Origin: Azadirachta indica
Taxonomy: Eukaryota > Streptophyta > Magnoliopsida > Sapindales > Meliaceae
Direction: 5' to 3'
Assembly: GCA_022749755.1 (NCBI GenBank)
Contig: CM040444.1
Coordinates: 12,796,274 to 12,860,273 of the forward strand
Length of the DNA: 64,000 nucleotides
The notes beneath the pieces are model-generated. The model was not told the DNA's origin. It saw only the letters and a list, made by a program, of their open reading frames with translations, and did no database searches. Positions 29,410-57,215 of this stretch are shown here, in pieces. Within the stretch, counting starts at the first letter, position 1. The number at the start of each line of letters is the position of its first letter. Position numbers and translations under genes: made by a program.

Positions 29410-30066
29410 TCAAGGATTTGTGGTTGTTTGAGTTGGCTTTGGAACGCCTGGAATGACGGGCAATGTGGGCTTCGGAATTTCTGGCAATTCAGGTACTTTT
29501 GGCAGCTCAGGTTTTGGAATTTCTGGTACTTTTGGTAACTCGGGTTTTGGAATCTCTGGCACTTTTGGTACCTCCGGCAGTTCAGGCTTAGGAATTTCGG
29601 GCACTTTAGGAAGCTCTGGCTTTGGGATCTCCGACTTAGGAATCTCAGGCAATTCAGGCTTTTTTGGCAGCTCAGGTTTTGGAACCTCTGGAACTTTTGG
29701 CAGCTCAGGCTTTGGAATCTCGGGTACTTTTGGCAGCTCTGGCTTTGGAATCTCAGATTTAGGAATCTCAGGCAGTTCAGGTTTTTTTGGTAGCTCGGGC
29801 TTAGGAACCTCGGGGACTTTTGGAAGCTCTGGTGTAGGAATCTCAGGCACTTTTGGCAGCTCAGGCTTAGGAATTTCGGGCAATTCAGGTTTTGGTAGCG
29901 GGGAAAATTCAATCTTAGGCAAAGGTGGCATCTCAGGCTTAGTTATTTCAGGCGCTGTTGCCTCTAGAAGATGGCGAGCACCAACCAAATTAACATTGTA
30001 GACCATTGACGGCAAAGCGATTAGCAGAATTGTTAAGATGTAGTATGGGATGCGGAGATACGCCAT
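29410..30066 (-). CDS. PELPK-type secreted proline-rich protein, longest copy, with retrozyme in its leader
   Basis: Intact single-exon gene of 218 residues, the longest of the cluster. Signal peptide (MAYLRIPYYILTILLIALPS), GARHLLEATAPEITKPEMP, then about 35 pentapeptide units. A block of roughly 40 residues ([20 protein letters not shown] and what follows) occurs twice in a row, so an internal duplication lengthened it. It ends TQTTTNP, as in 11694 and 15015. I chose the ATG at 30066 because it matches the family's MAYLRIP start. The frame is open further upstream, to 30195, but that stretch is 5' leader and retrozyme sequence and would bury the signal peptide. The gene's TATA box lies beyond the retrozyme at 31202-31210. 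Whether the gene is still expressed cannot be told from sequence. Confidence 0.88.
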   Translation of the reverse strand: MAYLRIPYYILTILLIALPSMVYNVNLVGARHLLEATAPEITKPEMPPLPKIEFSPLPKPELPEIPKPELPKVPEIPTPELPKVPEVPKPELPKKPELPEIPKSEIPKPELPKVPEIPKPELPKVPEVPKPELPKKPELPEIPKSEIPKPELPKVPEIPKPELPEVPKVPEIPKPELPKVPEIPKPELPKVPELPEIPKPTLPVIPGVPKPTQTTTNP

Positions 30067-30135
30067 TGTTGAAACTATTGACCAGAGAGAAGAAGATTGG
30101 GGGTTACCAATAACTAAATCGAAAAGAAAGCTTGT

Positions 30136-30416
30136 TGTCACGGCACGAGAAATCGCATGTTGGATGGGTGTGCTGGGGTGTGACAACTCAAGCACATTGA
30201 TGTTTCATGGTGCAAAGTCGGCTTCAGTCTCAAGGGCTATTATGTAAAGGGGACTTAAACCACCTCTGCCCGAACTGGTCGGGGACTGAAGCCGTCCTCC
30301 TGATGAGGCCAAGGTAGGCCGAAACCAGTTAAATATGCGACGGGTTAACAAGGCTTACCCTCGATATGGGGGTCTACGAGGGTGCCGCACGTGCCTTTTC
30401 CGCTGGGCGCGTGACA
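30136..30416 (+). repeat. 5' LTR of the retrozyme
   Basis: 281 bp, TGTCACG...CGTGACA. The hammerhead core in this copy is fully paired. Confidence 0.92.
30273..30330 (+). ncRNA. Type III hammerhead ribozyme, 5' LTR
   Basis: 58 nt. Stem III: AACTGGT (30273-30279) pairs with ACCAGTT (30324-30330), 7 bp. Cleavage site GTC with the scissile C at 30280. Stem I: GGGGAC pairs with GTCCTC (one G-U) around the loop TGAAGCC. Core CTGATGA, then stem II GGCC/GGCC around the loop AAGGTA, then core GAAA. All invariant core bases of the hammerhead are present. The short stem III is typical of retrozyme hammerheads, which work best as dimers. Confidence 0.92.
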
Positions 30417-30418
30417 GA

Positions 30419-30430
30419 TGGTATCAGAGC
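30419..30430 (+). promoter_or_regulatory. Retrozyme primer binding site
   Basis: TGGTATCAGAGC, the standard plant complement to the 3' end of initiator methionine tRNA, two bases inside the 5' LTR. It would prime minus-strand synthesis by a reverse transcriptase supplied by another element. Confidence 0.9.
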
Positions 30431-30880
30431 AGGAACGAGAATTTCCGCAAAATCTCGCTACGTTCCTGACTCCTGTGGGAATCCACCGAGTCGGCCGAGG
30501 ATATTAGCCCGTAAGATTGGGCGAGGGAAAACGGGGTGTCTATTGTGTGACCCTTCGCCACGCAGCCCCGAATGTGGGCGTGCTCGCACTATGTTGTGTC
30601 CTGCGGTATGGGGATCTTCCTGGGGGAAGATGAGCATAGTGGTTTGAAAGGCAACCGCATAGCGCCTCATCTACGCCAAGCACTGCTATCACCGTACGTC
30701 GAGGATGGCGTGCCTGCACGACGTGGTGTTATCGTGTTCTCTTTATGGGAGTCTCCTTAGCCCGGGGGAGATGGGCGTTATGGAATGGAGCGGTATGCAG
30801 GGTAGGACCTCGATGGTCTACCAATTGAGCTGGCGAAAAATTTGAAGATGGCCGCGTGCACGAGGACGTGCACGATTTTC

Positions 30881-30892
30881 GGTGGTGGAGAA
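30881..30892 (+). promoter_or_regulatory. Retrozyme polypurine tract
   Basis: GGTGGTGGAGAA directly before the 3' LTR, the expected position for plus-strand priming. Confidence 0.7.
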
Positions 30893-31173
30893 TGTCACGG
30901 CACGAGAAATCGCATGTTGGCTGGGTGTGCTGGGGTGTGACAACTCAAGCATATTGATGTTTCATGGTGCAAAGTCGGCTTCAGTCTCAAGGGCTATTAT
31001 GTAGAGGGGACTTAGACCACCCCTGCCCGAACTGGTCGGGGACTGAAGCCGTCCTCCTGATGAGACCAAGGTAGGCCGAAACCAGTTAAATATGCGACGG
31101 GCTAACAAGGCTTACCCTCGATATGGGGGTCTACGATGGTGCCGCACGTGTCTTTTCCGCTGGGCGCGTGACA
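30893..31173 (+). repeat. 3' LTR of the retrozyme
   Basis: 281 bp, nine substitutions from the 5' LTR, one of them inside the ribozyme's stem II. Confidence 0.92.
31030..31087 (+). ncRNA. Type III hammerhead ribozyme, 3' LTR, one stem II mismatch
   Basis: Same fold as the copy in the 5' LTR, with cleavage expected after C31037, but stem II reads GACC/GGCC, leaving an A-C mismatch at its second pair. Cleavage may be slower. The distance between the two cleavage positions is 757 nt, which is the predicted size of the excised RNA. Confidence 0.88.
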
Positions 31174-31199
31174 TTGTGCTTGTGCATAGGCTGTCTTAT

Positions 31200-31293
31200 G
31201 GCCTTTTATAGATCTGGGAAGAGGAGAACAGCTTGGGTTGGTAAGACTAAAAGGAACAAAAACAATAAATAAAATATAAAAGCTTGGGTTAGC
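31200..31293 (-). promoter_or_regulatory. PELPK core promoter displaced by the retrozyme
   Basis: Minus-strand ACCAACCCAAGCTGTTCTCC block and TATAAAAGG (31202-31210). A second AACCCAAGCT copy lies further upstream at 31282-31292. The TATA-to-ATG distance is now over 1.1 kb; removing the element and one TTGT gives about 95, matching the paralogues. Confidence 0.8.
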
Positions 31294-44808: not shown

Positions 44809-45952
44809 CTAAACTGTAGCAAGAAACCCTCTGGCAATTCTCCCGTTGCCACCATTTGGAAAAAATCCACCAGTCTTATTTTCACTTCCAGTTCCGTATA
44901 CTATCTTTAAAATTTCCGATGGAGTTCTTGAATATGATAAAGAATCAGCATTCGCTGATAAGATGTTACTTTGTGTCTTGTTCTCTGCACCGAGTTCTCG
45001 TGGCACAATTATGCCTTCATCTTTATTGCCTGACATAGCAAGCCGGTTCCTTAAGTTGGAGATAAGATTTGTAAAGTTGGCCACTGTTATGTTATAAGGG
45101 AACACTTTCTCATTAGCTCTCTGGTATAGTAATGTTCTTATAACTGCATCTTGTCCAGACTCCACCCCTAGAAGTCCAGAAACTAACTACAAAAGAGAAA
45201 AAACCAATGTATTTTTATTATGAAATATGATAAAAGTAAAGGATCAAGCTTCATATACGTGAGAGAAAATATTAGAAGAAGGATTTCTAGTTCTTACATT
45301 AAGAGAAGTGTGGTTAACAAGATTCGGTATGGTACCAACATATCCTACGAGTCCCACGTAAGGGATAATGTAGCTTGCTAAAAGGTAGTTAATAGTGTTA
45401 AAATAAGGGTCGAATTGAGGAAATAGTCTGTAACCAACCGCTTCATCAATCATTTGAGCAAAATTTTGAGCGCTGAGATTTAATTGAGGTCTTGGAAATC
45501 CTCCGATTGTTGTTATAATGGCCCTGAAGAATACCCATCAGATTTCGAATAAAAGATATTCAATATTTGTAATAGAAATAGAACGAAAACAATTCAATGA
45601 ATACCAAAGCTTCATATTTCAGTTAAAAATCATATTGCAGAGACCTTAGATGACCAACTTCTTGATAACCAAATTCCTCAATGATCTGATTTGTAAGAAA
45701 GTCAAGGTTGGCCTTTCTAGCTCCAGTTGGAGGAGGGCCACCTGCTGCTAACTGTGGGGCTATACTATCAAGCCCTCTACCGAGTGCTCCGTACAAGAAA
45801 AATTCTGCTTCTAAGAACTCTAGGTTTAAAGCTAATTGAATACGATCCTTATCATCAACTTCTATTGATTGATTGGATGTTACAGTACCCACGATTAAAC
45901 CTAGAATATTCAATGTGAGAAGTAAAGCAAAAAGGAAATATGGAGTAGCCAT
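44809..45952 (-). CDS. Desiccation-related protein PCC13-62-like, ferritin-like fold, three exons
   Basis: Minus-strand exons 45952-45645, 45523-45298 and 45186-44809 join to 912 nt (303 residues plus stop). All introns are GT-AG: donors AAG|GTCTCT and AAT|GTAAGA, acceptors TTCAG|GG and TGTAG|TT. A signal peptide (MATPYFLFALLLTLNILGLI, cut near VTS) precedes the ferritin-like domain: DRIQLALNLEFLEAEFFLYGALG and EFGYQEVGHLR give the acidic/His helix pattern of the family. It continues through QMIDEAVGYRLFPQFDPY, YIIPYVGLVGYVG, GVESGQDAVIRTLLYQRA and ends GGNGRIARGFLATV. Length and order match the PCC13-62 family, first found in resurrection plants and widespread in plants; the biochemical role is not settled. 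I chose ATG 45952 because it begins the signal peptide; the frame is open upstream. Exon 1 and upstream DNA are duplicated at 56.5 kb. Confidence 0.9.
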
Positions 45953-46510
45953 TTTTTCTTTGAAACACACAAACCGAAAAAAACTAGCCAACTTATTGAG
46001 ATGCATGCATGCATAGGGACTAAAGCTTTTATAGGCGTGTAATGTTGTATCGCAAAGAAAAAGTGATGCTGAAAGAATTAATAACACACGTATAAGCTCG
46101 ATGGGCCACAAGTTTAGTTAGGCAGGCATGATATTCTTAAAGAATTATTAATTATTTGTTTAAAAAATAAACATAGATATAACGATATATATAGCTCTTA
46201 ATTGCTTAATTAGTTCGTTGTTGACAAAATTAGGAAAACTTAATTAAATTGCCAACTGATGCAAGCAACTTAGTTGAAAATGATATATAAAATAAACTAA
46301 TTGATTGGCTATATCATTTTCAAAAATAAGGCTTGTAATTTGTCAATTTTGCTAGACAGAAAAATAGGGCCTAACGAGAAAATTAAGAAAATTAAGAATA
46401 ATCAATATATTTTTCTCATCTTAAAGTAGGGTTTTTAACAATTGGGATTATGGCTGTCTTTCTATAGTTCAATGTTAACAATGATGAAATCTCACGTGGA
46501 ATGTTGATAC
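45953..46510. repeat. Upstream region of the PCC13-62-like gene, duplicated at 56.8-57.2 kb
   Basis: Shared with 56813-57215: the leader (ATTTTTTCTTTGAAAYACAC, GATGCATGCATGCATA) and the distal TTCTATAGTTCAATGTTAAC block. Contains GCATGCATGCAT near 46004-46015, a direct CATGCA repeat in both copies that could be an RY element as found in seed-gene promoters (inference). Confidence 0.65.
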
Positions 46511-56450: not shown

Positions 56451-56504
56451 TTTTTCAATGAATACCAAAGCTTCATATTTCAGTTGAAATCACACTGCAG
56501 AGAC

Positions 56505-56812
56505 CTGAGATGACCAACTTCTTGATACCCAAATTCCTCAATGATCTGATTTGTAAGAAAGTCAAGGTCGGCCTTTCTAACTCCAGCTGGAGGAGGGCCA
56601 CCTGCGGCTAACTGTGGGGCTATACTATCAAGCCATTTACACAGTGCCCCGTTCAAGAAAAATTCTGCTTCTAAGAACTCCAAATTTAAAGCTAATTGAA
56701 TACGATCGTTATCATCAACTCTTATTGGTTCACTGGATGTTAAAGTACCCTCGATTAAACCTAGAATATTCAATGTGAGAAGTGACGCAAAAAGGAAATA
56801 TGGAGTAGCCAT
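56505..56812 (-). pseudogene. PCC13-62-like first exon, duplicated without exons 2-3
   Basis: The minus-strand ATG at 56812 begins MATPYFLFASLLTLNILGLI and the frame stays open through the ferritin-like first helix (DRIQLALNLEFLEAEFFLNG) to EFGYQEVGHLR. The 308-nt length and the donor CAG|GTCTCT match exon 1 of the intact gene. Homology ends at 56454, inside what was intron 1, so exons 2 and 3 were not copied and none are seen nearby. If transcribed, it would read 5 residues into the intron (SLQCDFN) and stop. It keeps the family's metal-type residues but cannot make the full fold. Confidence 0.85.
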
Positions 56813-57215
56813 TTTTTCTTTGAAATACACAAACCAATTAAAAAAACTAGCTAACTTATTGAGATGCATGCATGCATAAGGGAGTCGCAATAAGCTTTTA
56901 AAGACATGAAATGTTATGAGTAAATAAAAATTGGTGCCGAAGAAATTAACAACACACGTTAAAGCTCGATGGATCACAAGTTTACTTAGCCAAGCACATA
57001 TATTTTTTTAAAAATTTAGTAATTGTTTGTTTACAAATATATATATATATATATATATAGCTCTTGCATAATTTCGTATTTCTATATATAAAAAGAATAA
57101 TCAAAATATTTTTCTCATCTCAAGAGTAGGGTTTTTTACAATTGGGATTATGGTTGTCTTTCTATAGTTCAATGTTAACAACGATGGAAACCTCACATGG
57201 GATATTATGGTTTGA
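56813..57215. repeat. Duplicated upstream region of the truncated PCC13-62 copy
   Basis: Parallel to 45953-46510 with deletions and a (TA)n tract near 57040-57058. Confidence 0.6.

Follow-up and report, generated by a model that had tools for sequence, protein, structure and literature searches.

The element at positions 30136–31173 of the window (the whole 64,000-nucleotide stretch of the Azadirachta indica, or neem, genome analysed here) is confirmed by its sequence features as a plant LTR retrozyme, typical of the known family. We put at roughly 0.86 the probability of our overall reading, namely that it is a plant LTR retrozyme whose RNA is circularised and which is moved in trans by the reverse transcriptase and integrase of one chromodomain Ty3/Gypsy family (hereafter Gy). 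The element itself is of an already-known kind, and what is new here is the identification of its probable helper through hybrids of the two families. Indeed, the anatomy of the retrozyme, its dispersed copies, hybrids joined at the primer site within single target-site duplications (TSDs) and a target preference common to both families can all be read directly in the genome, and the hybrids together with the target preference support co-reverse-transcription and integration by one helper.

Anatomy and insertion site of the retrozyme

The initial annotation had read this locus as a complete retrozyme, a reading that held since its defining sequence features (type III hammerheads in both LTRs, a primer-binding site, a polypurine tract, a 4-bp TSD, a non-coding interior and a 757-nt spacing) were all located and further copies exist. 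Direct-repeat comparison delimited a 5′ LTR (30136..30416, plus strand) and a 3′ LTR (30893..31173, plus strand), both of 281 bp with the announced TGTCACG...CGTGACA ends, which differ at 9 sites and start 757 bp apart, the distance given beforehand for the two ribozymes. The 476-bp internal region (30417..30892, plus strand) opens with GA and then the primer-binding site TGGTATCAGAGC (30419..30430, plus strand), of which Gy carries an exact copy, and closes with the expected purine tract GGTGGTGGAGAA (30881..30892, plus strand), interrupted by two T and lying directly before the 3′ LTR. As had been claimed, the element shows no coding capacity above chance when frame length is compared with 500 shuffles, its longest stop-to-stop frame of 104 codons being equalled in 65% of them. 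The proposed duplication TTGT flanks the element on the left (30132..30135, inside AAGC-TTGT-GCTT) and, by flank reading, on the right (31174..31177), and paralogous gene copies at ~27.3 and 34.4 kb, which align across the joined flanks, have a single TTGT in AAGC-TTGT-GCTTG and so represent the empty site. Like the annotation, we take the primer site to be of the tRNA-Met type, an assignment that follows the motif and the published retrozyme layout.

In the accessible text of that description (Cervera, Urbina and de la Pena 2016, PMC4918200), plant LTR retrozymes have LTRs of ~300–400 bp with a type III hammerhead in each, a tRNA-Met primer site, a polypurine tract, a 4-bp TSD, no coding capacity and 600–1000 nt between ribozymes, and they include tandems bearing three or four ribozymes. 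The neem element agrees with them in the ribozyme of each LTR, primer site, polypurine tract, TSD, non-coding interior, spacing and tandem forms, and differs in its slightly shorter LTRs.

A TATA-like CTATAAAAGG at 31202–31211 on the minus strand makes the 5′ leader or the start site of the neighbouring host gene the probable point of insertion. This gene (29410..30066, minus strand) encodes a proline-rich protein of 218 aa, and 69 bp separate its ATG from the retrozyme. Similar sequences cluster around this proline-rich repeat gene (18.8–19.6, 26.5–27.7, 29.4–30.1, 33.8–34.9 and 38.1–38.5 kb), the translated copy being the one at 29410–30066. The window also holds two related Ferritin_2 (ferritin-like) genes on the minus strand (45623–46117 and 56480–57007) in duplicated segments that are 86% similar, and a thaumatin-like exon for which Melia azedarach gave the top match among the 120 listed of 475 (89% identity, 96% of the exon covered).

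Hammerhead ribozymes and the predicted circular RNA

When 1301 bases were searched by E-value, the Rfam Hammerhead_3 model (RF00008) matched at full length exactly 30273–30330 in the 5′ LTR (44.6 bits, E 3.4e-8; predicted cleavage after C30280) and 31030–31087 in the 3′ LTR (39.5 bits, E 9.7e-7; predicted cleavage after C31037), both on the plus strand. The covariance-model match foreseen for the two segments was therefore obtained, yet below the gathering score of 48.5, and because neither match attains this score, a default whole-window Rfam scan at the gathering threshold reported no hammerhead and E-value mode was required. The claim of a hammerhead core with its stems in each LTR stands as regards these full-length matches, but it had missed that G30308 of the 5′ LTR corresponds to A31065 in the 3′ LTR, an A.C mismatch in stem II of the 3′ ribozyme. 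The minimum free energy (MFE) structure of the 5′ ribozyme is the hammerhead fold, whereas that of the 3′ ribozyme is another fold because of this mismatch; energy alone is unremarkable, since 12/200 shuffles of the 5′ ribozyme and 109/200 of the 3′ ribozyme fold as well. Taken together, the mismatch and the non-hammerhead MFE suggest that the window copy may release its circle poorly.

Release and circularisation of the 757-nt RNA bounded by the two cleavage sites (30281..31037, plus strand) are predictions. Folded as a linear molecule, this unit is more stable than 20 shuffles (z −2.61), and folded as a circle it has an MFE of −294 kcal/mol with 64% of its bases paired, somewhat under the self-pairing "above 70%" that the accessible text of PMC4918200 gives for retrozyme-type RNAs.

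The catalytic core is intact in 140/143 fetched LTRs, a biased sample in which most loci were picked by exact core. Positions that vary in 5 or more copies are fewer in the ribozyme (1/58) than elsewhere in the LTR (32/223; p 0.005, duplicated loci included), and the same cut-off applied to ribozyme sites outside the locus-selection pattern gave 0/32 vs 32/223 (p 0.019). With cut-offs of 3, 8 and 10, the whole ribozyme compared with the rest of the LTR gave p 0.09, 0.31 and 0.69, i.e., significance at one cut-off in four, and singleton-bearing sites were alike (16/58 vs 53/223, p 0.61). Variation is sparse, with a single compensatory change (C-G to T-A) among the 143 LTRs. These patterns are no more than suggestive of selection on the ribozyme.

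Copies across the neem genome

The genome searched comprises 280.8 Mb in 21 contigs, with the window on contig C5 (12796274–12860273). At least 48 DNA matches were found, including the window's own, the others having 93–98% identity (40 of 219 candidates scored). The 26-nt ribozyme core, with up to 3 mismatches, matched 285 places in the genome (100 of them listed, all 100 exact) vs 0 for the reversed pattern, and the retrozyme hammerhead core is therefore more abundant than chance. In 40 two-LTR elements (3 of them within hybrids), the LTR pairs show a median of 3.5 differences per ~280 sites and 6 pairs are without mismatch, a low divergence which indicates that retrozyme movement is recent. 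Moreover, the expectation that other copies would carry 4-bp duplications was borne out, as these are exact in 38 of 42 distinct flank pairs, window copy included, once 6 ragged-LTR loci, 7 repeated-flank, 10 hybrid, 3 complex and 5 re-fetched places had been left out.

Some copies on contig C1 seem to have multiplied together with their surroundings. An identical solo LTR with its flanks repeats every ~18.9 kb, near 4, 23 and 42 kb and at 8.278 and 8.297 Mb (L009, L010, L011, L021, L022), a series that has the appearance of a large tandem repeat or duplicated segment; rDNA was considered as the source of the spacing and discarded, the four pieces scanned (L009, L021) giving no RNA-family match. 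In addition, L012, L013 and L015 (C1 1.35, 1.41 and 8.00 Mb) are one insertion in triplicate with TSD AAGT, laid out as LTR, ~381 bp of other sequence, partial LTR, internal region and LTR.

Hybrids between the retrozyme and a Ty3/Gypsy family

Gy is a chromodomain Ty3/Gypsy family with its own LTR of ~632 bp. The Gy copy borne by one hybrid (L038, scanned in four pieces) has gag, protease, reverse transcriptase, RNase H, integrase, SH3 and chromodomain in frames, with domain matches to PF03732, PF13975, PF00078, PF17917, PF00665 and PF00385. The helper thus presents the gag-PR-RT-RH-IN set plus chromodomain that marks chromoviruses, which it resembles also in its SH3 domain, and its hybrids carry 4-bp duplications. 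With the Gy LTR and the 4.7-kb L038 internal region compared against the retrozyme, blastn gave a best E of 0.078; common to the two families are the exact 12-nt primer site, a purine-tract stretch of 29 nt (79%), a patch of 15 nt and further short matches. In composites L060 and L075 the Gy internal region is ~3.25 kb instead of the 4.7 kb of L038 (the main frame of L060 has 1053 codons), which indicates that a shortened helper form also participates in hybrids. Another Gy copy (L110:752–2601, C2:21.575 Mb) runs from internal nt 1–1501 to an LTR end from nt 485, the primer site, nt 1–116 and nt 2200 onwards, a rearrangement inside the helper family that looks template-switch-like.

Junctions were counted over the whole genome, allowing up to 2 mismatches at the primer site and up to 3 at the purine tract. 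At the primer site, 106 junctions join retrozyme LTR to retrozyme internal region and 86 Gypsy to Gypsy, beside 11 from retrozyme LTR to Gypsy internal region and 7 from Gypsy LTR to retrozyme internal region, whereas the purine tract gave 0 and 0 hybrid junctions genome-wide vs 122 and 97 pure ones (18/210 vs 0/219; Fisher p 1.8e-6). C6:0.87 and C6:5.79 Mb have identical flanks and count as one event, leaving 16 hybrid junctions in 10 insertions; with 3 further insertions joined away from the primer site, on C4 (L039), at C5:1.96 = 9.16 Mb (L043, L047) and on C19 (L072), the independent hybrid insertions total 13. Three single-LTR forms starting at the primer site (L038, L050, L053) had been candidates for one-round circle copies, a reading rejected because a Gypsy LTR stands upstream and makes them hybrids.

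To describe the layouts, L stands for LTR, I for internal region, r for retrozyme and g for Gy. The form Lr-Ir-Lr-Ig-Lg occurs at C5:7.92 (TSD TCAT), C10:1.73 (ATAG), C10:7.05 (TATG) and C7:11.62 Mb; in the last case, where an inverted Gy copy adjoins, no TSD was found with or without that copy (TTAA/GTGG around the hybrid alone, CCAC/GTAA when that copy is included). Lr-Ig-Lg-Ir-Lr is found at C7:3.71 (TGTA) and on C3, where the flanks TTTT/TTGT are not an exact TSD, and Lg-Ir-Lr-Ig-Lg on C6 (AGTA) and at C7:17.79 (TAAG). C10:3.65 reads Lr-Ig-Lg(cut)-Lr-Ir-Lr (TCAA), C4 (L039) reads Lr-Ir-Lr-GATG followed by the last 192 nt of Lg (TTTG), and C19 (L072) reads Lg-Ig-Lg(cut)-Lr(from nt 147–148)-Ir-Lr-Ir-Lr (CTAT). 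The C11 composite, Lg-Ir-Lr-Ig-Lg-Ir-Lr, has TSD GATG, whose reading is partly ambiguous in that the retrozyme sequence following the LTR itself begins GATGG, and the C5:1.96 = 9.16 Mb insertion, of which one end was read, is joined inside the shared 15-nt patch. In eight composites (C5:7.92, C6, C7:11.62, C7:17.79, C10:1.73, C10:3.65, C10:7.05 and C19), the joins and both ends were read and Ig only partly, the far Gy LTR being placed from genome-wide Gy junction lists.

Overall, exact 4-bp TSDs surround 10 of the 12 composites with both ends read. Five of the ten have mixed termini, a retrozyme LTR bounding one side and a Gypsy LTR the opposite one: retrozyme left and Gy right within a single duplication at C5:7.92, C10:1.73 and C10:7.05, and the reverse order on C11 and C19. 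Since a retrozyme end and a Gy end lie inside one duplication, such a composite would most simply have been a single DNA molecule before integration, with both ends handled by one integrase.

Three joins may fall at RNA or cDNA ends. On C19, a Gypsy LTR gives way to the retrozyme LTR at nt 147–148 of the latter, and predicted cleavage falls between nt 145 and 146; the join thus lies 1–2 nt from the predicted site, with a small slip on the Gy side, and ~0.7% of unit positions are that close. This one case is no more than suggestive of a hammerhead-made RNA end. In L079 (306–318), GAAGC closes a cut Gypsy LTR and is separated from the retrozyme LTR by AAAA; the AAAA could be the poly(A) end of helper RNA, which would put its 3′ end at LTR nt ~609. 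In L039 (1243–1434), the Gypsy LTR piece begins at nt 441, near the expected transcription start (in L050, TATAAATA precedes it by ~30 nt), a layout reminiscent of a joined strong-stop cDNA.

Shared target preference

Among the 38 retrozymes with an exact TSD, GC precedes the duplication in 28 and follows it in 29, with both in 20, so that the insertion motif is AGC-N4-GCT. For Gy, GC follows N4 at 15 of 19 3′ ends, a reading of the 3′ side only at ends hand-picked from 97 places outside hybrids (one, L097, inside a nested C10 cluster), and GC makes up 3.05% of window dinucleotides. The common N4-GC target appears to be a second link between the retrozyme and Gy, in a comparison that covers these two families among the LTR families of the genome. 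Plant LTR families in the accessible text of PMC6911290 show merely a slight palindrome preference, in contrast with the strong target motif found here. Mobilisation by a Ty3/Gypsy element is thus indicated by both the genomic hybrids and the common target.

Proposed mechanism and alternative explanations

In the mechanism that we propose, transcription would produce an RNA carrying two hammerheads, whose cleavage would free the 757-nt unit for circularisation; the retrozyme RNA would then enter particles of the one chromodomain Ty3/Gypsy family, be primed at the tRNA site common to both, be copied by that family's reverse transcriptase and enter AGC-N4-GCT sites through the action of its integrase. 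What we infer in this scheme is the cleavage of the RNA in planta, its circularisation, co-packaging and the template switch. In its full form, circles and helper RNA would be copied in one particle, the reverse transcriptase switching at the primer site (~8% hybrid junctions), re-entry of the circle past the primer site would yield multimers and mixed concatemers inserted as a unit by the helper integrase, and one join would preserve a ribozyme-made RNA end; we hold this detailed version to be slightly better than an even bet.

The form of the template is where the principal alternative lies, i.e., that the retrozyme moves in trans as ordinary linear LTR-retrotransposon RNA, the circle being a by-product and the ribozyme dispensable for transposition. 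Uncleaved transcripts would equally yield complete LTRs and TSDs, the 3′ LTR ribozyme of the window copy is weakened and selection on the ribozyme is merely suggestive. Against this, the core is retained in nearly all LTRs of the biased sample described above, published retrozymes form circles (PMC4918200, accessible text), and retrozyme units occur consecutively: L069 has four identical LTRs with units directly following one another and TSD TGCC, whereas none of the 86 Gy junctions, read by eye, forms a same-strand pair at unit spacing. One Gy junction pair lies 1.6 kb apart on C2, in a Gy copy with an inner partial second LTR end, a primer site and 116 nt of internal region, which suggests that Gy too can be copied past its own primer site. 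An inner Lr followed by Ig recurs in seven composites. The unit pattern fits a template that can be re-entered past the primer site, e.g., a circle, but uncleaved or multimeric RNA would serve equally. The arrays L069 and L072 fit insertion as multimers. As general proof of circle copying, arrays were rejected, since the internal regions of L070 are without mismatch yet its LTRs differ at 4–8 sites, and with L071 pointing the same way these two look like later DNA duplication rather than multimer insertion. On balance, we regard the linear-RNA explanation as unlikely, at about one chance in five.

It is considerably less probable that integrated retrozymes and Gypsy copies produced the hybrids by recombining as DNA or by gene conversion, in which case the hybrids would be uninformative on shared reverse transcription. 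The two families do neighbour each other in places (e.g., several copies on C10 at 0.65–0.67 Mb), and the arrays L070 and L071 point to duplication at the DNA level. However, a single ectopic crossover would leave unmatched flanks, in conflict with the exact TSDs of 10 of the 12 composites, the common sequence at the join is ~20 nt, and the purine tract yields no hybrid despite the likeness of the two families there (79% identity across 29 nt, plus the LTR start). The hybrid joins are located where strand transfer happens in LTR reverse transcription. Assembly artefacts are a still fainter prospect: some loci are duplicated in the assembly, as with the C6 pair that has the same flanks, but misjoins would not be expected to create ten different exact TSDs, and the counted joins fall at one functional site. 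Finally, a TRIM-like element carrying a hammerhead by chance can practically be set aside, as both Rfam scores are under the gathering threshold but the matches are full-length at homologous places in both LTRs, the hammerhead is conserved among fetched LTRs and the published retrozyme layout is matched; TRIM/SMART elements, short and non-coding, are contrasted with retrozymes as lacking a ribozyme in the accessible text of PMC4918200, and ribozymes are present here.

Relation to known systems and significance

A Ty3-gypsy helper of plant retrozymes has been inferred from end similarity (PMC4918200, PMC7761336 and PMC9695139, in their accessible text). In PMC4918200 the helper is deduced from the ends and the accessible text describes no retrozyme-helper hybrids, whereas such hybrids are present in neem. 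The retrozymes of Nicotiana benthamiana (PMC9695139, accessible text) resemble those of neem in their full-length and partial copies, incomplete tandems and presumed Ty3-gypsy helper; they differ in that their RNA was measured and no helper hybrid is described in that text, the neem family being known from sequence alone. The nearest precedent that we found for the hybrids is the carnation small viroid-like RNA with the pararetrovirus CERV, where, according to the accessible text of PMC11722881, a hammerhead circular RNA is presumed to rely on a foreign reverse transcriptase that switches templates where short homologies occur. A hammerhead circular RNA and its copying by a foreign reverse transcriptase (both predicted in neem) are common to the two cases, but the carnation partner is a pararetrovirus, whereas the neem partners are chromosomal LTR composites with TSDs. 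No description of retrozyme-helper hybrids was found in the accessible text of PMC4918200, PMC9695139, PMC7761336 and PMC11722881 or in the open-licence literature searched, and that literature gave no report joining a hammerhead ribozyme with Azadirachta, or a retrozyme with Meliaceae.

Altogether, the composites in which a single TSD encloses both retrozyme and Gypsy ends name a helper family, and a named helper family makes the trans-mobilisation of a ribozyme-bearing circular RNA testable. Moreover, the junction count used here is applicable to any retrozyme-bearing genome.
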